47,641 bases of DNA. It comes from an uncultured Alphaproteobacteria bacterium (GTDB lineage: Bacteria > Pseudomonadota > Alphaproteobacteria > RF32 > CAG-239). The notes under the pieces were generated by a model. The model was not told where the DNA came from, did no database searches, and saw only the letters and a program-made list of their open reading frames with translations. The DNA lies in contig CALYBB010000024.1 of assembly GCA_944393715.1 (NCBI GenBank), positions 1 through 47,641 of the forward strand. Reading direction: 5' to 3'. The translations under genes and the position numbers were made by a program. Shown in pieces: positions 23,691 through 47,641 of this stretch (position 1 is the stretch's first letter; every line of letters begins with the position of its first letter).

Positions 23691-24095
23691 TTATTTGGTT
23701 ACAAATTCAACCAAAACTTTTTTTAATTCTTCGTTTAAAAGGTTGTCGGCATTATCCTGCCAGTCGGCCGGAAAATTGTTTTTTAAAATAAAATCTGCCT
23801 TGTGCAGACGGACGCACTGGTCGACTAAATAAGCCTCGCATTTTTTTCTGGCTCGGCGGATAAGCTCTGCAAATTCCGGTTTTTTTTGGTATTCATCTAG
23901 TTCTTTGCTTGAAATTCCGAGATAATCACATAAGCCAGTTAAGTGCAACGGTGCTTGTTCGGAAATTTCTACTACCTCACCCTTTTTAGCGTTGTAAATT
24001 TCTACCTTATGATTGGCGCGCTCAACAAAATACTTTTCAATTTTGCGCTCCATTGCAGAAACACTCTGATATTTGACGGGCGTTGCTAATCCCAT
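23691..24095 (-). CDS. Terminase small subunit (gp3-like)
   Basis: A 134-aa DNA-recognition subunit directly upstream of the large subunit. Recognisable parts are PLHLTGLCDYLGISSKELDE (HTH-like), FAELIRRARKKCEAYLVDQC and FILKNNFPADWQDN, the pattern of P22 gp3-type packaging proteins. It should bind pac or cos DNA and form the ring that loads the motor. Confidence 0.8.
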   Translation of the reverse strand: MGLATPVKYQSVSAMERKIEKYFVERANHKVEIYNAKKGEVVEISEQAPLHLTGLCDYLGISSKELDEYQKKPEFAELIRRARKKCEAYLVDQCVRLHKADFILKNNFPADWQDNADNLLNEELKKVLVEFVTK

Positions 24096-24141
24096 AAAAA
24101 CTCCTTTTAATTAGCATATCAAAAGTTTTTACAACGACAAT

Positions 24142-24177
24142 AAAAAAGTGAGAAAGTTTTTGACCCACTTTCTCACT
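24142..24177 (-). terminator. Strong terminator upstream of the terminase genes
   Basis: On the minus strand AGTGAGAAAGT-GGGTCAAAA-ACTTTCTCACT is followed by TTTTTTA. It ends the early leftward transcript (24239-24949) before the terminase genes, so late genes need antitermination or another promoter. Confidence 0.85.
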
Positions 24178-24238
24178 ATACTTGGTTTTATACATCCACC
24201 CGACGGATATGTCAATAGGGGGAAAGCATAATTTTTTT

Positions 24239-24382
24239 TCACCACCACATAAAAACTCTTCCAAGTATAGGAATTTCAATGGCTATACTACAAATTATAT
24301 GTGTGGATAAGTAGCCCAATTTAAGTTGGTTAATTAAATTTAGAGCCAGAAATAACAGCGTATAAATTTCAACAAAGTCCAT
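24239..24382 (-). CDS. Small hydrophobic protein, 47 aa
   Basis: Too short for usual gene callers. An ATG at 24382 with AGGACG 9 nt upstream starts MDFVEIYTLLFLALNLINQL; the product is hydrophobic throughout and ends LGRVFMWW. Probably a membrane peptide. It lies between the DUF6456-like gene and the strong terminator, so it is likely expressed in the same early transcript. The remainder of 24096-24469 holds that terminator and otherwise AT-rich spacer. Confidence 0.5.
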   Translation of the reverse strand: MDFVEIYTLLFLALNLINQLKLGYLSTHIICSIAIEIPILGRVFMWW

Positions 24383-24469
24383 ATTTATCGTCCTTATTTA
24401 AAATTAACACATTGTTTGTATTATATATTGTTGCTTATGTAAAGTTTTAATTATAATATTTATATATTT

Positions 24470-24949
24470 TCAACTTTTAGTATATGTTTCGATAATGCGA
24501 TCCAGACCACGGCACAAATCTATCCGGCATAAAAAATAAAAATATGTTTTTTGGCGTTCGCTAAGCTGCGGAGGAACTATCGGCTCTTTTTCCTCAAGAC
24601 AGACGCGCCTGACAACCGGCCAAAATTCTGGTGGAACCGAGCGGACAGCTCGACGATAGCGATTTTGGGCATCTAGCGATTCCATACTTTCGTTTTTAAC
24701 AGACGAATCGATTTTGTCGTTAAAAATAAATCCTGAATGTAACTTAAAGCGATTCGCCAGATGATAATCCAGCATAAATTTTAAACCAAAACGCAGTCTA
24801 TCATCTGCACCGTAGCGTGAATTTTTGAGTTCCAGCCATCCTTTGTTGTGCCAAATTTCCAGCAGTGTTTGCTTATAAAAACAACCGTTTTTTTTGATCA
24901 AACCTTTGGCTAAAGCATCCTCTCTGTCGGTGTATTGCTTGTGTTTCAT
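24470..24949 (-). CDS. Phage regulatory protein, DUF6456-like C-terminus
   Basis: A 159-aa basic protein. The C-terminal half (NRYRRAVRSVPPEFWPVVRR, VCLEEKEPI, QKTYFYFLCRIDLCRGLDRI) resembles the DUF6456 domain of alphaproteobacterial prophages, a short helical region related to phage late-gene regulators. The N-terminus (LIKKNGCFYKQTLLEIWHNK) is unfamiliar. Promoter and operators lie just upstream, shared with the divergent repressor, so repression in the lysogen and a role in switching on late genes are plausible. Tentative. Confidence 0.5.
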   Translation of the reverse strand: MKHKQYTDREDALAKGLIKKNGCFYKQTLLEIWHNKGWLELKNSRYGADDRLRFGLKFMLDYHLANRFKLHSGFIFNDKIDSSVKNESMESLDAQNRYRRAVRSVPPEFWPVVRRVCLEEKEPIVPPQLSERQKTYFYFLCRIDLCRGLDRIIETYTKS

Positions 24950-24967
24950 TTTCGAGCCCCTCCTATT

Positions 24968-25003
24968 ATTGTATTATTACAATGCTTGCCGGTGTAAAGT
25001 CAA
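24968..25003 (-). promoter_or_regulatory. Leftward phage promoter with operator
   Basis: On the minus strand TTGACT (25003-24998) and TAATAA (24979-24974) are 18 nt apart. A perfect inverted repeat ATTGTA-TTAT-TACAAT (24968-24983) covers the -10 box, a good position for repression by the divergent repressor. Confidence 0.6.
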
Positions 25004-25030
25004 TGTAAATTTTTAAAAGAACAAAACCTG

Positions 25031-25059
25031 TTTACAAAGTTGTAAAATTGCCATATAGT
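25031..25059 (+). promoter_or_regulatory. Promoter of the repressor gene with autoregulatory operator
   Basis: TTTACA (25031-25036) and TATAGT (25054-25059) are 17 nt apart. The palindrome TTTACAA-AG-TTGTAAA (25031-25046) overlaps the -35 box and shares the TTGTA/TACAA half-site with the operator at 24968. Confidence 0.65.
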
Positions 25060-25095
25060 TCTCTTGTGTTTTAACGGTGTTTGGGAGTGTGTTTG

Positions 25096-25800
25096 ATGGA
25101 TAAGCTGCAGCAGGTTAGAAATTTTTTAGAAAAAACAGTCAAAGAAAAGGGTATCAGCCTGAATGCTCTTTCGCTGCAAATAGGCAAAAATTCCACTTAT
25201 TTGTTCCATTTTATTAAAAGACATTCGCCCAAGCGTTTGGATGAAAATACTCGCAGAAAACTCGCCAAAATACTTGATGTCTCAGAGCAGGATTTGTGTG
25301 ATTTTCCACTGCCGTCGACTTTGATACAAGACAAGCTCGATACTATTTCCAGTTTATTCAATCTGGGAAAAAACAAAACGGAATCCTTGCTCTCTTTTGA
25401 TGTTATTGATATGGATGCCTCAGGAAGAGGACGTTTTGAGCAATTAAAAAAGAATGTTATTGGTCAAATTTTAATGACGCCGAAAACGGCTGCTGTTTAT
25501 ACGCAGACAAAACCTGAATATATCAAGATTCTAAAAGCTTCCGGAGAAGCCATGGTTCCCACCATCAATCCCGGAGATATGCTCTGGCTTGATACATCGT
25601 GCAGCACGCCTTCGGCTGATGGGATATATCTTTTGAATGCCGGAAGCGATGTTTTGATCCGGCGACTGCAAATTAATCCTTTTGATAAATCTATTGATGT
25701 TTCTTCCGACAATAAAGCTTATCGTTCGTGGACGATTGCCGACTATAAGAAACTTGATATTTGCGGTAAGATTATTTTTGTTTCGCACCGACTGACTTAA
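25096..25800 (+). CDS. XRE-type phage repressor with catalytically inactive S24 domain
   Basis: The ATG at 25096 has GGGAG 9 nt upstream (the frame opens at 25081); 234 aa. An N-terminal HTH (about 10-65, GISLNALSLQIGKNSTYLFH) is followed by a LexA/CI-type domain. The nucleophile motif, normally GDSMxPT, reads GEAMVPT with Ala at 152, and the general-base Lys of VKRLQ is Arg (IRRLQ, R189). The expected Ala-Gly scissile bond region reads DASGRG. The domain can still dimerise but probably cannot cleave itself in the SOS response. Divergent from the phage early gene with two palindromic operators between. Confidence 0.85.
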   Translation: MDKLQQVRNFLEKTVKEKGISLNALSLQIGKNSTYLFHFIKRHSPKRLDENTRRKLAKILDVSEQDLCDFPLPSTLIQDKLDTISSLFNLGKNKTESLLSFDVIDMDASGRGRFEQLKKNVIGQILMTPKTAAVYTQTKPEYIKILKASGEAMVPTINPGDMLWLDTSCSTPSADGIYLLNAGSDVLIRRLQINPFDKSIDVSSDNKAYRSWTIADYKKLDICGKIIFVSHRLT

Positions 25801-38029: not shown

Positions 38030-39631
38030 TTACATTTGGTCTTTTGAAATATAATTTTCTTCGTAATCTTTTGAGGAATCAAGAGTGATGGCATCGACTT
38101 CGCTTTCTTTATAATAGCGTTTTATGTCATCAAAGTCGTCTATTGAATAGCTCAGTCCTACGGCGACGGCTGTCCGTGCGCAATCAATATTTTTGTTTTC
38201 GGTAATGAAATCTTTTTGATTCCTTTTAACATCGATAAGACGGAATCCTCGACAGCGCCTATAACCGAAATGGTCACCGCAATTTTTTTTGAGCCAGGCG
38301 GTTAGATCTTCCTCTATCAAATTCATGTAGAAAGCTATCGCCGAACCACCACCGCCAATAGCTAAAGGCACTGTTTCACGCCATTCTCTGGCGTGCGGAT
38401 CTCTTTCTCTATAGGTTGAAAACAGAACTTTTTTAAAACTTGTCAAAATCTTGTTTTTGTATTTTGCAACATCTTCATGTTGGCACTGTTTTATTTCCTC
38501 GACAACCAAATAGTCTTCTTCATCAGTTACAATATGGTCAAGGCTTTGAGCTGCAATCACTCTTTCTTTTTGCGCGACTAAGCTATTAAAGGCATTTTTA
38601 TAATTAAACAACGCAGACTGATACTCTTTGGTGCCCAAAGGTTCAACCTTTGATTTGAAAAAAGAATATATGATATTGCCAGCATCTTCTTTAACTCTGA
38701 ACGTGCAAATATCCAGCGTTCCTGCTCCGATATCCGAAACACAGTATAAGCCTTCGTGAGAAATATCGTTGCGTTTGATGTATGACTGAATTGACGCAAT
38801 AATCTCAGGTACAATATTCAAGGCCGTTTTATCTTCTTCCATAACAGGAGATTTAGCCGATATGTCGGAAAAAGCAGACAGATAATATGCCTCTTTTAGA
38901 ACCTGAAGAAACTTGGCATTATCGCCGTCGTTGTTAAATTGGACAGACGGTATGCCCAGATTTACCTGCCAGATGATATTTTTGTTTTTGACGATATCAT
39001 CGCGCCCATGTTTCTTGACAAACCAACTTTTAATATATCGCAAGACCAAAGCGATGTAGGCACGAAAATATATATCTGCATTTTTTTCGCTACGGATGAA
39101 ATTCAGCTTTAGGTTTGTACACGTATGGGGCTGTCCGTATTCAGGCAATGAAAAGATGCCGTTTTTTTCGCATAAATACGTCGGAAGGAGGTATTCTTCT
39201 CCAGTTATTCCGTATTTGCCAAAATCAACAATATAAAAAGCATCATTGTCTGCATAGACTTCTTTAATAACGGCTTTAGTGGTTGATGTTCCGACATCAA
39301 GCCCGATACATAAGTCAATATCTTCTTTTTTTGACGGGGTAAAAATATCTCTAAATCTGAATTCATTGGGCGGCGTTAAGGATTGGGTTTGAGTTTCGGC
39401 GGTGTTTTGTTCGCGGTGTTTCCAAAACCTTTTTGTAACGGTTTGTTCCTCAAGATACCTTTTGCCTTTTACTATTTTTTCGACCACAAGCGGCCGAACC
39501 TTTTTAATGCCGGCATAGTGCATGTTTTTGGCTTTATTTTCATCATCAACCAAGGCATGTTCATCACGCCCGAGCATTTTATTTTTCAGAGCACGCAACT
39601 TTGCCATATTTTCATCATCTAATATTCCCAT
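38030..39631 (-). CDS. Hsp70/actin-fold (ASKHA) ATPase paired with a SNF2 helicase
   Basis: A 533-aa protein with an N-terminal basic helical segment (about 1-100), then the ASKHA ATPase: phosphate 1 IDLCIGLDVGTSTTKAVI (105-122), phosphate 2 CVSDIGAGTLDICTF (297-311) and adenosine loop PLAIGGGGSAIA (422-433). The substrate-binding domain of DnaK is absent; the N-terminal extension takes its place. It starts 1 bp after the helicase gene stop, with the helicase gene first. The helicase-ASKHA association is not one I recognise as an established system; a defence or DNA-remodelling role is inferred. Confidence 0.78.
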   Translation of the reverse strand: MGILDDENMAKLRALKNKMLGRDEHALVDDENKAKNMHYAGIKKVRPLVVEKIVKGKRYLEEQTVTKRFWKHREQNTAETQTQSLTPPNEFRFRDIFTPSKKEDIDLCIGLDVGTSTTKAVIKEVYADNDAFYIVDFGKYGITGEEYLLPTYLCEKNGIFSLPEYGQPHTCTNLKLNFIRSEKNADIYFRAYIALVLRYIKSWFVKKHGRDDIVKNKNIIWQVNLGIPSVQFNNDGDNAKFLQVLKEAYYLSAFSDISAKSPVMEEDKTALNIVPEIIASIQSYIKRNDISHEGLYCVSDIGAGTLDICTFRVKEDAGNIIYSFFKSKVEPLGTKEYQSALFNYKNAFNSLVAQKERVIAAQSLDHIVTDEEDYLVVEEIKQCQHEDVAKYKNKILTSFKKVLFSTYRERDPHAREWRETVPLAIGGGGSAIAFYMNLIEEDLTAWLKKNCGDHFGYRRCRGFRLIDVKRNQKDFITENKNIDCARTAVAVGLSYSIDDFDDIKRYYKESEVDAITLDSSKDYEENYISKDQM

Positions 39632-39632
39632 T

Positions 39633-42600
39633 TTATCCTGCCTTTACCAGAACCATGCAAACATCTGTTTTTTCGGCTTTTATATTTTTGTTGTTTTCTA
39701 TTTTCAACAATCTGTCTTCAATCTTTTGCCGCAAAATTGAAAATTTTCCTTCCACGGCGGGCAGCATTTTTTCGTTGTGGCTTTCGATATATTTTTGTTT
39801 TGTTACGGCTAATTGTGCTTTTTTTAGATCCAGATGCCTTTGCAAGGTTGCCTTTTGCATTTCCGCTTTGTCAAAATTTTGATTTTCGATATCTTTTACC
39901 GTATTTTCATAACTTTCCAGATTAGATATCATAATATCTTCGGACATTTTACCGAGCTTATCGTAATTCAAGCCGCTGCGTTCGTTCCACAAACGCCCTT
40001 TGTTGAGTGCCTCAAGAAGAATTTTTTTGGCCACTTCGCCTTCCAGCCACTGCCCCGTTTGGACATTTTGACCGTTGTATATCAGTTTTTCATATGCGAC
40101 AACACCTCTTGCCGACATTAATGAAACACCGATCAAGAACAAGCCTTTGTTGTCGCTGTTTTCCACTTTAATGGCTGAGGTCGGCGCATAATTATTTTTG
40201 GGATCAATATCGTGCAAAAATCTGACAATCGGGTGGAATTGATTGATTGTTTCAACAGTACCTTTTGATTTTATCACGACATTATTGGTAAACACACAGG
40301 GGATGCTGCCGTATTCGCGCAAAAGAAGGCTGTTAGAGCTTAGTCCGTTGGCGCGGCAATAGTCTTCATAAGCCACACGAAAAGACGAATCCACCGTAAT
40401 TTCGTATTTATACGCCGTTGAAGTTTTAGCTATTGTGGTGTTTTGATAAAGTTTTGTTAGTGTATCGAGGACATAATTGGCAATATCCTGAGATGTAATA
40501 ATGTTGTCTTCATCTTTTGCTTTTTGGATCTCGCGCAAAACATAATCGCCATAGGCGGTCAATTGCGAGGCCTCCGCTTCCAGCTTATTATTTTGTTCTT
40601 CTTTATTTATGATTGCCATTCTTGTTTGTTCTATTCTGGCATTCTGTTCTTCAGGCGACAGCAGAAGCAAATCGACGGATAGTCTCTTGAACATATCGCC
40701 CAAGATAATTTCAAAATCGCCTAAAGAACTGGTGCAGATATCAAATTTTGCATAGAGTTTGTCGTAGATGCGTTTGTCTATGGTGGTGTCGTGAAACATG
40801 TTCCATATAAGAATTTTATCATTTTTTTGCCCGATGCGGTCAAGACGGCCTATTCTTTGCTCAACGCGCATGGGATTCCACGGCAAATCGTAGTTAATCA
40901 GCAACCGGCAAAATTGCAAATCGACACCTTCGCTTCCGACCTCTGATGCCAGTAATATCCTTTGATCTTCGTCTTTTTCAAACTTTTCCAATATTGTATC
41001 TTTATCTTTTACCTTGCCTGAAATAACAGATCCTTTGATACCGTCTTCCGCCAATCTTTTTTGCAGATATTCCAAGGTTGATATAAAAGAGGAAAATAAG
41101 ACAATTTTATCTCGAGGATATTTTTGCGCAATCTGTTTTATGACATCAAGCAGACGCTGATATTTTGTATCATTAGCATATAAAGCATCAAGATCTTTGA
41201 TGCCCTCGACGGTATTGTAAATTTGATTCATAAAATCCGTAATTTCAATTTTTTCAAATTCGTTGTCGCCGTCATCGTAGTAAATATCGTCCAATCTTTG
41301 TTTCCATAAAACAAGCGAAGCGTAGATGCTGCTGGACATCATCCTTTGCGGCATACACAACAAAAACTTAGCTAAGTGCTCATTTCCTTTTTGCGCGGCA
41401 TATTTCCGCACCGTGGCAGAGATTGCATCATAAACGATATTTTCTTCCGGCGTCATTTTAATTTCTTCCGGAATAGCCTCGCGAACAACCTTATATTCTT
41501 GTATATCTCTTTTTCTGGTACGGTTAATGATATATCCAAGAGAATTTATGCTGTCTATTTCGTAAGCAAAATGGTGCAATCGGCTTTGGAGCAAATCCGG
41601 CGTATGTTCAATCTCATCTTGCATGACCGCTAATTGTTTGCTGTTTTTGAACAAGCCTAGGACATCATGCGCATGGACCTCATTTATTAAGGCTAAAATG
41701 CTTTTTTTGTTCAGTCTTTCTGCCAACAGGCCGTCGCGGAGTTTTATCAACGGTTTGTTAATGGCCAAAATTTCATCAAAAGAACTGCCGCTGACATATT
41801 CCCGCGAAAAATTTGCCGGATCCAGCAAGCTGAGCAGCGACAAAAGATCTTCCGATTTGTTTTGTATCGGTGTGGCCGACAGAAACGCCGCATATTCCGA
41901 TACCTCTCTTAACGAACGGGCAATTTTATAAATCTGCGTTTCGGGATTACGCAGATAATGAGCCTCATCAACAATCAACAAATCAAATATCTTTTCGCCT
42001 TTATCCGCTAAATCATCAAAAGTCTGGCGGACAATATTGCCTTTGTCTTTTTCGTTATCCTCTTTATTTCTTCTTTCGTCTTTACTCCGCGTAACCAAAC
42101 CCTGACGGCTGCAAATTAAAACGAACTCATCTTCTTCTTTGTTTTGGGCGGCTGCAATCAGTTCTCTGGCATCAATTATTTCGGCTTTTACGCCCATTTT
42201 TTTCTTTAGTTCATCTTTCCATTTTTGGCGCAAAATCCCCGGACAAACAATCAGCAGCTTTTTAAAATTAAAGCGCTGTTTCAGCTCTGTCCAGATTAGG
42301 CCGGCTTCAATCGTTTTGCCCAAACCAACTTCGTCGGCGATTAAAACGCTGTTTGAAGCGGAGTTAATTATCTTCATTACCGGTTTGAATTGGTGCGCAT
42401 AAAAATCCGTATTAGTTGTTTCCATACTGTAAAGCATATCATTGAGATTTCCGTTCAGACGGATTTTGGTAATCTCCCGACGAACATCCTCAACAGAATT
42501 AAATATGTTTTTGGCCACCAACGACGGCAAATCATCAAAAATCTCATCATTTTCGCAAAGCGCCAAATAACTTTCTGGATATTGGGTAATTTGTTTGTCA

Positions 42601-42704
42601 AATTTCACATACCAAAAAATGCGGTCGCGCTTGACCGTTTTTTTCTGCAGTATCCCTATTTTCTGCGGATTTGATTTCAGGAAGACTTTGTTGTTTATTT
42701 CCAT
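39633..42704 (-). CDS. SNF2/RapA-like DNA-translocating ATPase (1023 aa)
   Basis: A complete SF2 SNF2 motor. Motif I LIADEVGLGKTIEAG (121-135), Ia LIVCPGILRQKW, II LLIVDEAHYLRNP (242-254), III FLSATPIQNKS (274-284), IV RDKIVLFSSFIST (531-543), V LASEVGSEGVDLQF (585-598), VI RVEQRIGRLDRIGQ (613-626). The C-terminal 250 residues end in long coiled coils (residues about 920-1010). No nuclease or methylase domain is visible. The layout resembles RapA and the SNF2 helicase DrmD of DISARM; here it is the first gene of a two-gene unit with the Hsp70-like protein. Weak ribosome-binding site AGAATATCT before the ATG. Confidence 0.9.
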   Translation of the reverse strand: MEINNKVFLKSNPQKIGILQKKTVKRDRIFWYVKFDKQITQYPESYLALCENDEIFDDLPSLVAKNIFNSVEDVRREITKIRLNGNLNDMLYSMETTNTDFYAHQFKPVMKIINSASNSVLIADEVGLGKTIEAGLIWTELKQRFNFKKLLIVCPGILRQKWKDELKKKMGVKAEIIDARELIAAAQNKEEDEFVLICSRQGLVTRSKDERRNKEDNEKDKGNIVRQTFDDLADKGEKIFDLLIVDEAHYLRNPETQIYKIARSLREVSEYAAFLSATPIQNKSEDLLSLLSLLDPANFSREYVSGSSFDEILAINKPLIKLRDGLLAERLNKKSILALINEVHAHDVLGLFKNSKQLAVMQDEIEHTPDLLQSRLHHFAYEIDSINSLGYIINRTRKRDIQEYKVVREAIPEEIKMTPEENIVYDAISATVRKYAAQKGNEHLAKFLLCMPQRMMSSSIYASLVLWKQRLDDIYYDDGDNEFEKIEITDFMNQIYNTVEGIKDLDALYANDTKYQRLLDVIKQIAQKYPRDKIVLFSSFISTLEYLQKRLAEDGIKGSVISGKVKDKDTILEKFEKDEDQRILLASEVGSEGVDLQFCRLLINYDLPWNPMRVEQRIGRLDRIGQKNDKILIWNMFHDTTIDKRIYDKLYAKFDICTSSLGDFEIILGDMFKRLSVDLLLLSPEEQNARIEQTRMAIINKEEQNNKLEAEASQLTAYGDYVLREIQKAKDEDNIITSQDIANYVLDTLTKLYQNTTIAKTSTAYKYEITVDSSFRVAYEDYCRANGLSSNSLLLREYGSIPCVFTNNVVIKSKGTVETINQFHPIVRFLHDIDPKNNYAPTSAIKVENSDNKGLFLIGVSLMSARGVVAYEKLIYNGQNVQTGQWLEGEVAKKILLEALNKGRLWNERSGLNYDKLGKMSEDIMISNLESYENTVKDIENQNFDKAEMQKATLQRHLDLKKAQLAVTKQKYIESHNEKMLPAVEGKFSILRQKIEDRLLKIENNKNIKAEKTDVCMVLVKAG

Positions 42705-42781
42705 TAGATATTCTTTAACTTATATTGCCATAGCTTCATCTATAGTAGTAAACAATGGTTTGAAAATCAACTACTTTTATT

Positions 42782-43165
42782 ACAACAAGAAGACGTCAAG
42801 CAATTATTGCTAAAAGTGAAAAAATTGATGGCTCCAAGATAACTATAGATGATTTAGCCGCGATTGATAAAGACACCAATTTAGGTGATAAGCAAGCCTT
42901 TCTTTGGGCTGTGGGGAGATATTTGCAGTTGATGTAAAGGATTTTACCAAAGAAGGAAAAATGGATTTACTCAAAAAGTTTATTGAAGAAGGATAAAAAG
43001 AGCTAAAAACGGACCAATTGTTATTTATGCACCGGATAATTTAGTTGGTAAAATTATTGGTAAAGACGGTAAAATATTAAAGGATTGAGTCAAGAATCAG
43101 GTGCGCGTTTTAAGGTTGTAAAAGCCAGCGAAAAACAGATAATACGGGAAACGCCTCCGATGAAA
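42782..43165 (+). pseudogene. Decayed KH-domain protein gene
   Basis: Readable pieces in shifting frames show a former gene. About 42783-42938 reads RRRQAIIAKSEKIDGSKITI then DDLAAIDKDTN and stops. The next frame has VKDFTKEGKMDLLKKFIEEG and stops. About 43010-43087 gives GPIVIYAPDNLVGKIIGKDG then KILK, the KH-domain GxxG loop, and after a further frameshift SQESGARFKVVKASEKQIIR. At least two frameshifts and two stops. The remainder of 42705-43594 holds the left flanking repeat and AT-rich sequence. Confidence 0.6.
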
Positions 43166-43254
43166 AAAACAATACTTTCATACGATGGGCTACTTCGGGC
43201 AAAGGAAGGAAATAATTTATAATCTAACTTATTAAACAAACAAGAAGTTCCTGC

Positions 43255-43375
43255 GAAAAAGTTCGGACAAAGTGAAAAAAATGACTACTAAAAAATGAAA
43301 CATCCGAACTTGCTAAAAGCCTTGAAAATAAAAGAAAAAGCAGCCGTTTTACCGACTGCCGTTTGTATTGGTGAT
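43255..43375 (+). repeat. Left flanking direct repeat (~121 bp) of the AT-rich island
   Basis: Aligns with 47408-47529: shared blocks GAAAAAGTTCGGACAAA, GAAACATCCGAACT and AAAAGCCTTG.AAATAAAAGA, then AAAAAGCAG..., and TTTGTATTGGTGAT at the end. Inside lies an inverted repeat AGTTCGGA (43260-43267) / TCCGAACT (43303-43310). Confidence 0.8.
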
Positions 43376-43594
43376 GCCAGCGTAATGAATCTCGAACTTT
43401 TACTTTCTCAAAGTATTATCTGACGACAATGAGTTTGTATGAAGAAATTAAAAGAAATAATGTTATATCTCTGCAATTATTATAAACTCATGACGATTAT
43501 ATTTTTATTTGTACCGAAATTTATATTTGGCCAATAAATTCTCTCTATTTTCCTCTTTAGGCAGATTCTTAATTTGATGTGGCTTTTATTAAAA

Positions 43595-45271
43595 TTACTT
43601 TTCTCGGTATACCATATCATCAGGTATATAGCCTCTATTGTTAGAAAAGATTCTGTTTTCTTCACTTTGAAATCTGCTGATACTTAAATTAATTTCTTCA
43701 ATTAATTTTTTTATTATAGATCGATTTAAAAATACAGAAAGAGGGTATGCCTTGATTGCACCTATTTTAATATCTGTACCTTTTATTTTGTAGCTACGTG
43801 AAGAAGTGTAAGCAAAGCTTATTTTACCTTGTAAACTTAAATGTTTTATATAATTACTGTATTTTATATTATATTCTTTAATTTTATTAATTTCTTTCAG
43901 TGGTAATTTTAAAATTTCTTGCAAATCTAAATTTTTATATTCCGCAGGTTTTATGATAAACAGCGTTGCTAATCCTTCTGTTTCTTTATTGATAATTTCT
44001 ATGCTAGAGTTCAAACTTAATTTTTTTCTAAAAAATTCTGTTTCAGAAAATAAACATCCAACCAATTGGCAGTACCCTTTAATTCCTAGAGTTTTTAAAC
44101 TGATTAAAGCAGAAATAGGACCAGAAGCCGATCTAGTAAGCTCTAAAGATGTTTCAAATGGAGCAAAAGATCCCCAACTTAAATTTTCATATGGTATATT
44201 TTTTTTAGGATTTAAATTAAAATATGCATTTCTATCTTTTATTAAAAAAAGACTGGATATATATGGACAAAATCCTGTTTTATGGAAATCTACACCAATT
44301 GAGTCTGCATATTTTATTTCTTCTATTTTTTTGCTAAGTTTTTTTATTTTTTCTATAGATGATTTGTCAAAATGGCAACAGTTTTCATTAAAATCATATT
44401 TCTTAAAAAATAACCATACCCAACCTATAACAGCATCTACATGAATATGTGGAGAGTAACTTAAATTATATTTTTTTATAATTTTTTTGTTTAATTTAAA
44501 TATTTTTTTTATAGGGTCAACAGCATATTCAACTGTACTGCAACCATTAATATTATATCCTAAAAATATTTTTCCAGCTTCTATATTTTCTTGAATAATT
44601 TGTTCTAATACCTCCATCTTAATTTGATCATTTTCGTCACAAGGTGCTTCAATGCAATTATTTTCTCCAATTCCTAGCCAGTTACACACTTCATAATGGC
44701 AAGGGTGAGCTTTGGCACTAGTTATTATAAAATACCTTTTTCCAGAAATTCCTTGCTGAATAACTGATGGATCTGCTTTATTTAAGGCTATTTTAGTAGC
44801 ATATAAATTAGTACCTTTTCCACCAAAAGTAAAAATTCCATGTGAATTTTTCCAATCCCAGCCTATTAAATCGCATAAGTATTTGCTAACTTCTAATTCA
44901 CTAGCGAGTAACCTTCCTGAATATTGGTCTTCTGCAATATTAGGATTAAAAATGTTTGTAAAACATATTCCCGCTAGAGAAGCTAAATTGACAGGAGGGA
45001 TAACATTAATCATAGTCCCTGGATTAATCCAATTGGGAATATTTTGATACATAGGAGAAATATATTGAAAAACATCTTGAGGATTCATATGATCAAAATT
45101 CAATTCACAATTTTGAATATATTCCATATAATTAAAATTTTCAGATCCTTTAAAAAAGGGTTTAGCATAGTTAGTGTACTTATCTATAGCCTTTTCACAT
45201 TGTTTGATTAATTTTATCGAATAATTTAAATTTGACTTTTTATAACCACCAAAATATTTGCTAATGTACAT
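43595..45271 (-). CDS. Group II PLP-dependent decarboxylase
   Basis: A 558-aa fold-type I PLP enzyme. GIFTFGGKGTNLYATKIAL (146-164) is the cofactor-phosphate loop, SAKAHPCHYEVCNWLGIG (185-202) holds the ring-stacking H189, PHIHVDAVIGW (D279) binds the pyridine nitrogen and DSIGVDFHKTGFCPY (K331) carries the Schiff-base lysine. This is the pattern of glutamate/tyrosine/diaminobutyrate decarboxylases; the usual SGGTEAN is changed to FGGKGTN and the substrate is unknown. It starts 11 bp inside the nucleotidyltransferase gene's 3' end. Coding region very AT-rich compared with the main chromosome. Confidence 0.85.
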   Translation of the reverse strand: MYISKYFGGYKKSNLNYSIKLIKQCEKAIDKYTNYAKPFFKGSENFNYMEYIQNCELNFDHMNPQDVFQYISPMYQNIPNWINPGTMINVIPPVNLASLAGICFTNIFNPNIAEDQYSGRLLASELEVSKYLCDLIGWDWKNSHGIFTFGGKGTNLYATKIALNKADPSVIQQGISGKRYFIITSAKAHPCHYEVCNWLGIGENNCIEAPCDENDQIKMEVLEQIIQENIEAGKIFLGYNINGCSTVEYAVDPIKKIFKLNKKIIKKYNLSYSPHIHVDAVIGWVWLFFKKYDFNENCCHFDKSSIEKIKKLSKKIEEIKYADSIGVDFHKTGFCPYISSLFLIKDRNAYFNLNPKKNIPYENLSWGSFAPFETSLELTRSASGPISALISLKTLGIKGYCQLVGCLFSETEFFRKKLSLNSSIEIINKETEGLATLFIIKPAEYKNLDLQEILKLPLKEINKIKEYNIKYSNYIKHLSLQGKISFAYTSSRSYKIKGTDIKIGAIKAYPLSVFLNRSIIKKLIEEINLSISRFQSEENRIFSNNRGYIPDDMVYREK

Positions 45272-46151
45272 AATAATCTTTCCTTGCTATATTGCTAATT
45301 ATTTGACAATTTGTCTTTTTTCTATCTTCAACAGTTTTTTCCTTATAATAATTTATATAATATTTCTTACTTAAATTAATAAACTCTAATGCAGATTTAT
45401 ATATGCTTTGATCCTTATTAAAAAACAAAATATTCTGTTCTTCTTCTTTTAACTCTAATATATTGTCAAATTGATATTTTAAGTGTTTATGCAAACATAC
45501 CGGATATTTTCTTTTGTACATAAATAACCATTTTATAAAATGATTCCTTGTCTTATATAAATGATCCATAATATCGGGATCTTTTGTTTCTGCAAGGAAT
45601 TCTATACGTTTAGTATATCCTTCCAATCGTTTTCCTAAAATATCTAATCTTTTTCTCCTAAGATCATTATTGTAAAAGGGCAAAAAATCTCTTTCTATTC
45701 GTTTCTTTTCTGGAATTTCACCAAATAAAGGTATTCCGTGCTGATATAAAGCACCAATTATCATATCAATACTATCATAAGAAGATGTTTTGTCGATGTT
45801 TTCTATTCTTGGCACTTCAGGAGAGAGAATTGTTATGTCAAACGCAATATCAGGATGCTTGATATAGAATTCTATTCTGCGAGCGACATAGTCGTCAATA
45901 CTTACGGGATTTTTATCTTTAAAATCTTGATTGCTATTGCGAACAACTTCTACTATTTCATTAGCATCCAGCGAATTCATTTTATCTGTATACACACAAA
46001 TATCTATATCCGAAACACCAGGAATAAAACCTTTTTTATAGGTAGATGAACCGTAAATTTGAGCTGCTTGAATTTTTAAAGGGGCTAAATCTTTTTGGAG
46101 GTATTCTTTTATGTCTAATAATGCCTTTTTATATTTTTCAAAAAAGAACAT
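45261..46151 (-). CDS. Minimal nucleotidyltransferase (pol beta-like)
   Basis: A 296-aa protein with the core motif IYGSSTYKKGFIPGVSDIDI (32-51): GSS followed by the two catalytic Asp (D48, D50), then a third candidate Asp in DIAFDITILSP (about 105). The C-terminal half is helical (KRLEGYTKRIEFLAETKDPD; LYKTRNHFIKWLFMYKRKYP), like the accessory helix of MNT/DUF4037 proteins. It would transfer NMP to a small molecule or protein. Good GGAGAAAAA ribosome-binding site and 1 bp after the phosphodiesterase gene. Part of the same AT-rich operon. Confidence 0.82.
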   Translation of the reverse strand: MFFFEKYKKALLDIKEYLQKDLAPLKIQAAQIYGSSTYKKGFIPGVSDIDICVYTDKMNSLDANEIVEVVRNSNQDFKDKNPVSIDDYVARRIEFYIKHPDIAFDITILSPEVPRIENIDKTSSYDSIDMIIGALYQHGIPLFGEIPEKKRIERDFLPFYNNDLRRKRLDILGKRLEGYTKRIEFLAETKDPDIMDHLYKTRNHFIKWLFMYKRKYPVCLHKHLKYQFDNILELKEEEQNILFFNKDQSIYKSALEFINLSKKYYINYYKEKTVEDRKKTNCQIISNIARKDYYVH

Positions 46152-46152
46152 A

Positions 46153-47259
46153 TTAATTTTTCTCCAATAAAATTAATGGAACAAACATTTCCTCTTTACT
46201 TAAACCCGCATGATCAGCTTTTAATGATTTAAACTCTTTTTCCCCTGTAGAATATCGCAACGATTTATTGCCCTTAGATATTGCTACGAATTGGCCTAAG
46301 AAATTTGGTACTTCAGAATGCATTTTTCCACTTCCTAAAATTCCGCTTCCTAAAAATTCCTCTTTCGTATATAAATGAAAATCATTTTCAAATATCTCTT
46401 TGAATTTTGAATAAAAATATTTTTCATTATTCTCTTTGATAAAAAAAGTAATAAATCTGGCTTCTAATGCAGGTGGGCGTAAAAATGTATTACATAATTC
46501 AGAATATTTATTTAAATAAATTTCTTCTACGTCAATTTCGCCATGATCTGCAGAAATAATGACTAGAGAATCTTTTAGGCTATTATTTAGTTTTTGTATA
46601 TTATAATCAATGTCTAATAAAATATTTTTTACTTCATTGCTATTAGTACCATATTGATGCGTAGAATGATCAGGCTCAATCCAATATGCGCAAAATAATT
46701 TCGAATTATCATTTTTAGTTGCTAAAGCAATAATTTTGTCACACATTTCTTGAAAGCTATCAACCCCACCAACTTCAAAAGATGGAAAAATCTTATGATA
46801 TTCAATAGAAGGATTATTTTTAATAATTTTTTCATATATAGTTTCATATTTTAAAATATCTTTATATGGAGCTGGTGTCTCCATTTTTTTCCCACTATAA
46901 AATGCCTTGTTTCTGAAAGTTTCTATAATTTCATCGTATTTTCGATAGTAGCACATCCATCCCAGCCAGCCACTTTCCCATGGTGATAAGCCAGAATGAA
47001 AAGCTGTCGTTGCTGCGGCAGTTGTTGGGGGAAAGACTGAAGATATTTGTGCAATGATATGTTGCCGTATAAAGCTGTCTTTAGAAAGATTTTTTTCAAT
47101 TAAATCTATCCCCATCCCATCCAAAATGAGAAGGATAATATTTTTATGTTTATTTAAAAGTTTTTTATCTAAAATATCCAAAGAAGGGTGATATATTGGT
47201 AATCCATAATATTTAAGAAGTGAATTGCTAACTGCAAGAATATTATTTTTATTAATCAT
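46153..47259 (-). CDS. Alkaline phosphatase-superfamily phosphodiesterase/nucleotide pyrophosphatase
   Basis: From the ATG at 47259 (GGAG 6 nt before; the frame opens at 47271) the protein is 368 aa. Family metal and nucleophile sites (numbered from 47271): NIILLILDGMGIDLI (D51), FPPTTAAATTAFHSGLSP (nucleophile T83 or T84), CAYWIEPDHSTHQYG (metal D and H), VIISADHGE (D, H) and ADHAGLSKEEM (C-terminal metal H). This is the type I phosphodiesterase/nucleotide pyrophosphatase group acting on phosphate mono- or diesters with two metals. No signal peptide, so it is cytoplasmic. First gene of the island operon. Confidence 0.85.
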   Translation of the reverse strand: MINKNNILAVSNSLLKYYGLPIYHPSLDILDKKLLNKHKNIILLILDGMGIDLIEKNLSKDSFIRQHIIAQISSVFPPTTAAATTAFHSGLSPWESGWLGWMCYYRKYDEIIETFRNKAFYSGKKMETPAPYKDILKYETIYEKIIKNNPSIEYHKIFPSFEVGGVDSFQEMCDKIIALATKNDNSKLFCAYWIEPDHSTHQYGTNSNEVKNILLDIDYNIQKLNNSLKDSLVIISADHGEIDVEEIYLNKYSELCNTFLRPPALEARFITFFIKENNEKYFYSKFKEIFENDFHLYTKEEFLGSGILGSGKMHSEVPNFLGQFVAISKGNKSLRYSTGEKEFKSLKADHAGLSKEEMFVPLILLEKN

Positions 47260-47280
47260 AAACTTCTCCATTTTTAATAG

Positions 47281-47308
47281 AAAATACCATTCTTTTGCAT
47301 ATTGTCAA
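47281..47308 (-). promoter_or_regulatory. Promoter of the island operon
   Basis: On the minus strand TTGACA (47308-47303), a 16-nt spacer and TATTTT (47286-47281) lie 22 bp before the ATG of the phosphodiesterase. Confidence 0.6.
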
Positions 47309-47407
47309 TTATATTTTTCATTATATAATAGAATGTTATGGAATATGCAATGTATGTCCCCAGCTACTAGTCTCGCTTAACACATTGAAAAATAGATAAA
47401 ACAGATT

Positions 47408-47529
47408 GAAAAAGTTCGGACAAATTGAAAAAATGATGATTTTTGAAAATGAAACATCCGAACTCAAGAAAAGCCTTGGAAATAAAAGAAAAAGCAGGCA
47501 TTTTTCAGCCTGCTGTTTGTATTGGTGAT
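47408..47529 (+). repeat. Right flanking direct repeat (~122 bp) of the AT-rich island
   Basis: Imperfect copy of 43255-43375 in the same orientation, with the conserved inverted repeat AGTTCGGA (47413-47420) / TCCGAACT (47457-47464). Beyond it (47530-47641) the sequence turns GC-richer with no gene recognised. Confidence 0.8.
47483..47514 (-). terminator. Terminator hairpin inside the right flanking repeat
   Basis: On the minus strand AGCAGGC-(8 nt)-GCCTGCT is followed by TTTTTCTTTT. The left copy (about 43338-43361) keeps the hairpin with one mismatch. It would stop transcription entering the island from the right. Confidence 0.7.
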
Positions 47530-47641
47530 CCGGGCGGGATTATTACGCTACGCTTCATTCACAGCGCTCATCGGCTTTACAGCCGACCGGCATCCTTAAA
47601 GTCTGCCTTTCGCTTGTAGTCGAACCCAACTTTATGGCTTC

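Follow-up and report, generated by a model that had tools for sequence, protein, structure and literature searches.

Probable tRNA-anchored cassettes as carriers of a three-enzyme operon in an uncultured alphaproteobacterium

How does a compact, AT-rich set of three enzyme genes come to lie between two similar direct repeats in the genome of an uncultured alphaproteobacterium? The genes stand near one end of a 47,641-nucleotide stretch of DNA from assembly GCA_944393715.1 (the window, meaning the whole stretch analysed); it is the entire contig C24 of a 1.4 Mb genome, G000, and it stops at position 47641, 112 bp beyond the right-hand repeat. The operon is probably the cargo of a non-autonomous family of cassettes that integrate site-specifically at the 3′ ends of tRNA genes and stack head to tail. 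Several lines of evidence lead to this reading: conserved ends on unrelated cargo, a constant polarity, abutment to tRNA genes, the sequence of a junction, recent transfer between genera, and purifying selection on the genes that are carried.

The unit contains three genes on the minus strand: a phosphodiesterase (PDE, 46153-47271, 372 amino acids) of the AlkP superfamily, NPP-like; a pol-beta-like nucleotidyltransferase (NT, 45261-46151, 296 amino acids); and a group II pyridoxal phosphate (PLP) decarboxylase (DC, 43595-45271, 558 amino acids). A preliminary description, made from the letters alone, had noted their tight packing and their composition, and both observations are accurate: by open reading frame (ORF) coordinates DC and NT overlap by exactly 11 bp and NT and PDE are separated by exactly 1 bp, and the G+C content is 27.8% in 43376-47412 compared with 42.0% in 1-43250. 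The genes can be treated as one operon, and from their packing a single promoter is plausible; promoter-like sites occur at chance level (28 counted, 28.8 expected), the best on the minus strand being TTGACA-16-TATTTT at 47308-47281. The operon is present once in G000, which rules out simple duplication as the origin of the unit.

The direct repeats reported at both ends (43255-43375 and 47408-47529) are real: they lie on the same strand and are 85% identical over 121 bp, a match (E 8.5e-32 within G000) that is not due to chance. Besides one 28-bp match, they are all that G000 has at E <= 0.001. The idea that they flank a duplicated segment did not hold, however, since each repeat is the left end (LE) of one cassette and the left-hand one is part of the cassette that comes next. 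The general layout of a unit is a 118-bp LE containing a terminator and an inverted repeat, then one to three genes, then a mimic of a tRNA 3′ end of about 28 bp that finishes in GCATCACCA. Read on the tRNA strand, the LE opens with ATCACCA-ATnCAAAC, continues with a hairpin and T-run (the terminator) and ends with an 8-bp inverted repeat, AGTTCGGA...TCCGAACT, with arms about 38 nt apart. The LE of the window cassette (47408-47535, minus strand; profile match 47413-47529) shows each of these parts: ATCACCA followed by ATACAAAC, the terminator hairpin AGCAGGC-TGAAAAAT-GCCTGCT with its T-run, and the inverted repeat. Terminator-like minus-strand hairpins are found in both repeats (43360-43339 and 47514-47493), and the LE of the next, downstream cassette (43255-43375, minus strand) is recognised by the repeat as well as by the profile. 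A two-helix structure of the LE has 89.9% paired cells and four pairs changed on both sides, exceeding slid and shuffled controls, which gives it modest support among sequences that are related to one another. RNAalifold recovered only five pairs in a consensus fold of the LE block, and the block had no match in Rfam.

The other boundary of the unit, the right end (RE), is also defined by sequence. The RE carries TTCGNAA...GCATCACCA and has only about 8 bp in common with the tRNA; most internal LE copies are preceded by TCGTAAACCGTGAGTTAAGCATCACCA or AAAGTTCGAAATTCATTGCGTTGGCATCACCA or near variants, on unrelated cargo. With both strands counted, 1.25 Mb contains 31 instances of the motif, of which 22 adjoin an LE; the seven listed instances away from any LE are followed by other terminators. 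The RE of the window cassette (43376-43407, minus strand) is a mimic of the second type, AAAGTTCGAGATTCATTACGCTGGCATCACCA, and its final bases already fall within the left-hand repeat as matched by the profile; the same type accompanies other cargo at L036, L113, L120, L177 and L180.

A second group of observations concerns where these ends are found. The preliminary description had allowed that the repeats might be dispersed intergenic elements at unrelated sites; copies are indeed numerous, but they form head-to-tail arrays behind tRNA genes. A 136-bp repeat query matched 99 of 152 genomes of the host family, often with several same-strand copies about 1 kb apart, and profile mapping showed that the first copy of an array reaches a few bases into the 3′ end of tRNA-Glu. 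Across 44 stretches with 86 LE copies, 38 of 41 neighbouring pairs have the same orientation and the median spacing is 1063 bp. In 24 cases the LE abuts a tRNA 3′ end (tRNA-Glu in 20, otherwise Lys, Pro and Met), always in one orientation, and no LE was found at a tRNA in any other arrangement. Cargo follows the same polarity: 53 of the 61 ORFs in 38 units are on the tRNA strand, and 26 units hold a single ORF. One LE copy in the host family lies at tRNA-Lys-ttt; another family of the class (L196, L197, L198, L199) has LE copies at tRNA-Pro-ggg (three in tandem), tRNA-Lys-ctt (two), tRNA-Met and tRNA-Glu. The target is therefore the tRNA 3′ end, with Glu preferred. At the tRNA-Glu-ttc locus, marked by the same upstream gene, the site is filled in four genomes (G012, G002, G006, G144) and lacks the block in four others (G008, G009, G026, G046).

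Array cargo includes glycosyltransferase 2, NUDIX, GNAT, kinase, inositol-phosphatase, HAD, methyltransferase, hexapeptide transferase and Tlde1-like domain proteins, along with many unknowns; PADLOC found no defence profile among it. Some cargo recurs. A methyltransferase-domain protein is carried in three arrays (L113 6183-7055, L116 518-1309, L180 9530-10321; 77% DNA identity between L113 and L116) and may be a common pool gene, and a near-identical glycosyltransferase-2 cassette occupies different array positions in G164 and G050 (L102 12421-13224, L108 4585-5388). Behind tRNA-Glu-ttc in G009 and G106 there are also short non-coding units (L146 1570-1880, L148 1570-1830), each ending in a tRNA-Glu 3′ fragment and a terminator of another kind, which looks as though the site also served other cassette families.

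The point of exchange can be narrowed down with a 1272-bp cassette that is 98.3% identical in G004 and G144, which belong to different genera and have different tRNA-Glu genes. In G004 the RE, ...GTTAAGCATC, runs into ACCAATTCAAAC, the start of the next LE; in G144 the same ...GTTAAGCATC runs into GCCACTAAAACACC, a native terminator. The crossover is thus confined to the last tRNA bases, which argues for site-specific recombination.

The operon itself has moved between genera. The suggestion that the unit was inserted as a cassette led to the expectation that the same three-gene order would occur in other genomes, and it does: two further genera have it, with DNA that is 93-95% identical and a foreign context beyond the repeats. 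DC is absent from 34 congeners, yet it has a 95% match in G040, from another genus, so that the operon is found in one of 35 congeners including G000; searches with PDE and NT added G106, from a third genus (94-95%). At the DNA level the G000 unit is 95% identical to that of G040 over window positions 43532-47490, and 93% identical to that of G106 over 43327-47490. By comparison, a conserved gene located upstream of tRNA-Glu shows only 69-76% identity, both among genomes of one genus and across genera. The ratio of nonsynonymous to synonymous substitution (dN/dS) is 0.07-0.17 for all three genes. High identity in two other genera, absence from 34 congeners and a dN/dS near 0.1 together indicate recent horizontal spread of working genes under purifying selection. 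In a fourth genus (G185) NT and DC form a divergent pair that is 62-68% identical and keeps the 11-bp overlap. NT had no relatives outside the host family among 385 genomes of the class and none in plasmids or phages; DC had no relative in viral contigs and plasmid relatives at only about 28%. On these searches a phage or plasmid source for the operon was rejected. In G040 and G106 the left end of the operon copy is interrupted at an identical position by an insertion of about 80 bp (L010 16913-16990, L036 11183-11261). This insertion is also seen in split left-end copies of other arrays and is perhaps a small repeat targeting the hairpin.

Placement of the operon at a particular tRNA comes from G106 and G108. 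In G106 the genes on the far flank of the operon, among them one for a TrpRS-like protein, show synteny with those on the far flank of the G108 tRNA-Glu-ctc array, and the tRNA-Glu-ctc of G106 itself carries an LE at a contig end; this is good indirect placement of the operon. In the window, the sequence on the tRNA side of the LE (47528-47641, minus strand) is non-coding and includes a tRNA-3′-like fragment, ...AATCCCGCCCGGATCACCA. On the other side, beyond the next LE, 42750-43250 (minus strand) holds broken frames with no ORF of at least 80 amino acids, one of them resembling a KH-domain fragment (IIGKDGK), and can be read as the decayed cargo of the next cassette.

These observations suggest the following mechanism. 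An incoming cassette would recombine within the last tRNA bases (GATCACCA) and leave the tRNA whole, and each newcomer would push older cassettes outward. The LE (about 118 bp) would give the tRNA a new terminator and its inverted repeat would be the likely binding site of the recombinase, while the RE, after one to three genes on the tRNA strand, would imitate the tRNA 3′ end. We infer a circular intermediate and a recombinase acting in trans. The unit has no transposase or recombinase (its three ORFs are the enzymes), no dedicated recombinase was found near the arrays of 18 genomes, and none of 20 family genomes, nearly all bearing arrays, had an integron integrase above the TIGR02249 cut-off. 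The nearest listed PF00589 match to a listed LE in those 18 genomes is about 13 kb away and is also XerC/XerD-like; G000 has two PF00589 matches, on other contigs, of XerC/XerD size and score. With none near the arrays and none over the integrase cut-off, the recombinase would act in trans or have been lost, and XerC/XerD are possible candidates.

That G000 has just two tyrosine recombinases, both the size of XerC/XerD, also suits an explanation that needs RecA only: the repeats would be common terminators behind tRNA genes, and homologous recombination would swap content between copies. About 120 bp at 85-95% identity suffices for such exchange, and some units are fused or rearranged, for example in G040. 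The G144 junction is hard to explain in this way, as the far end of the cassette is joined, exactly at ATC/CCA, to a native terminator that has no relation to the repeat, with homology of at most about 8 bp; RE motifs meet other terminators at CCA in seven more places, and both ends are common to unrelated cargo. RecA acting by itself is thus an unlikely explanation. Far less probable is an integron, in which the repeats would be attC sites and an attI proximal to the tRNA would be served by IntI. Repeats of about 120 bp, arrays in one cassette orientation, mostly one gene each, and varied cargo (GNAT, NUDIX, methyltransferase, unknown) do resemble one, but no integrase exceeded the cut-off in the 20 genomes, the aligned repeat ends have just GTTCGGA/TCCGAAC-type inverted repeats in place of RYYYAAC/GTTRRRY, and arrays are anchored at a tRNA 3′ end where an integron would have attI next to intI. 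With neither integrase nor attC ends found, this candidate was rejected. A composite transposon, or a duplicated dispersed repeat of IS or REP type flanking the genes by chance, would fit an AT-rich unit with direct repeats at both ends and many copies in the family. It is the least probable of these and was likewise rejected: there is no transposase, the repeat abuts tRNA genes in a single orientation (24 against 0), and cassettes without two flanking copies exist (G144).

Several findings weigh against the site-specific cassette reading. The two tRNA-Glu genes of G000 have short assembled flanks without an LE (27 bp downstream of tRNA-Glu-ttc on C50, 330 bp downstream of tRNA-Glu-ctc on C21), so the anchoring of the window cassette is taken from relatives, its own junction falling in an assembly gap. 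The G040 copy of the operon lacks the border and forms a fusion with another cassette, which has a counterpart in G172 at 92-99% identity. Some REs fit no motif, and the missing recombinase near the arrays counts on the same side. The 44 stretches were picked for holding copies, many of them several, so that the array statistics are inflated and describe arrays, not all copies.

What the cargo does is a separate question from how it moves. DC matches the Pfam family Pyridoxal_deC (4e-11, 42.7 bits against a cut-off of 27) and has H189 (PLP stacking), D279 and K331, the lysine of the HK motif. PDE matches Phosphodiest (1.6e-18, 67.9 bits against a cut-off of 23) and has D51, T83/T84, D201, H205, D242, H243 and H318; the alignment columns of the metal ligands and nucleophile (D51, T83, D201, H205, D242, H243) are invariant. 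Its structure model (pLDDT, the model's confidence score, 95.4) is closest in the PDB to ENPP5 (Foldseek E 5.9e-17) and ENPP6, and also matches phosphonoacetate hydrolase. It shares the AlkP-superfamily fold and metal ligands with these enzymes but is just 12-17% identical to them, and by eye it has no obvious signal peptide. NT falls just short of the Polbeta cut-off (4.3e-5, 24.0 bits against 26.9; NTP_transf_2 0.0054), although a GS...DxD...D motif can be seen by eye (GS34-35, D48/D50 in SDID, D105). DC shares the catalytic H/D/K with group II PLP decarboxylases (DABA decarboxylase, GAD, TyrDC) but is only about 28% identical to its nearest plasmid-borne homologues and far below every substrate-specific equivalog cut-off (DABA 61 of 900 bits, MfnA 50 of 299, TyrDC 39 of 905, PanP 36 of 606).

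Together, the three enzymes probably synthesise or modify a small molecule linked to a nucleotide. Co-transfer and constraint make a joint pathway plausible, its order and substrates being guesses. One version, compatible with the cassette reading and already raised in the preliminary description, is that DC makes an amine, NT activates or modifies it, and PDE cleaves a phosphoester. The active-site signatures of all three look intact, gene order and strong constraint are kept in three genera, and the NT-DC pair with its 11-bp overlap recurs in the fourth. Even so, this particular sequence of steps is a tentative and rather improbable proposal. About 31 other family genomes have PDE relatives (31-54% identity) but neither NT nor DC, so PDE at least is independent of them; these lone genes have varied neighbours, none conserved, with no left ends beside them, and gave no functional clue. 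The low substrate-specific scores of DC and a poor NT model (pLDDT 37), which yielded no fold, count against it as well, and no paper on the three-enzyme set was found among open-licence PubMed Central papers. An anti-phage defence system is an unlikely candidate: PADLOC was essentially negative on the operon, with a single weak "Cyclase" match to NT (2.2e-4).

The rest of the window adds two observations on its gene content. At 38030-42704 a SNF2/Helicase_C protein (1023 amino acids) lies beside a 533-amino-acid protein that reads like an actin/Hsp70-type ATPase; weak helicase-domain matches alone were found in 4 of 34 congeners, and the two are probably an acquired pair. As a synteny anchor for G000 this flank failed, the helicase itself being absent from congeners. 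At about 23700-25800, ORFs that by eye resemble a phage terminase small subunit and a LexA/S24-type repressor suggest a prophage remnant.

tRNA genes are known targets of additive flexible genomic islands, and the cassettes belong among such islands. They have been described in Alteromonas (PMC4119200), in Ca. Actinomarinales, where transfer between genera is included (PMC7771536), and in Methylophilaceae, where the repeats of flexible genomic island 2 (fGI-2) are the last 20 nt of tRNA-Lys and units start at 330 bp (PMC10872708). Shared features are the tRNA target (here in relatives), cassettes adding one behind another with presence or absence at one locus, direct repeats of the tRNA end, transfer between genera, and cargo mostly of unknown function. 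The differences lie in the element. In the islands described so far the final 20-52 nt of the tRNA form the repeat, whereas here it is mainly a block of about 118 bp outside the tRNA, which unrelated cargo has in common at tRNAs for Glu, Lys, Pro and Met. The RE that mimics a tRNA is separate, the median unit is about 1 kb, and there is no recombinase. Tycheposons are also tRNA-bordered and carry cargo, but they span 4-200 kb and have a tyrosine recombinase (PMC10872708); the window unit of about 4.1 kb encodes none. Integron cassettes are similar in being head to tail in one orientation, with about one gene each and varied cargo, and differ in their integrase, attC end motifs and lack of a tRNA anchor. 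Neither this combination of features nor arrays of the kind in RF32-like genomes was found in the open-licence papers. A wider reading, possible but doubtful, is a cassette-capture system parallel to integrons, served by a dedicated trans-acting recombinase or by host XerC/XerD, with a gene pool across genera and at least two alphaproteobacterial families and a three-enzyme nucleotide-linked pathway as cargo.

Descriptions of additive islands linked to tRNA genes have so far dealt with individual cases and have usually not defined an element. In these arrays the LE, the RE motif and the junction define a unit, which makes cassettes countable and their boundaries predictable by sequence search across genomes, and makes the mobilisation of integrase-less tRNA islands testable. 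The hosts may live in the gut, judging from relatedness and names. For these uncultured Alphaproteobacteria the approach yields a list of genes that have been exchanged, many without a known function, and for the three-enzyme cargo, which combines purifying selection with a very restricted distribution, biochemistry could reveal a new small-molecule pathway.

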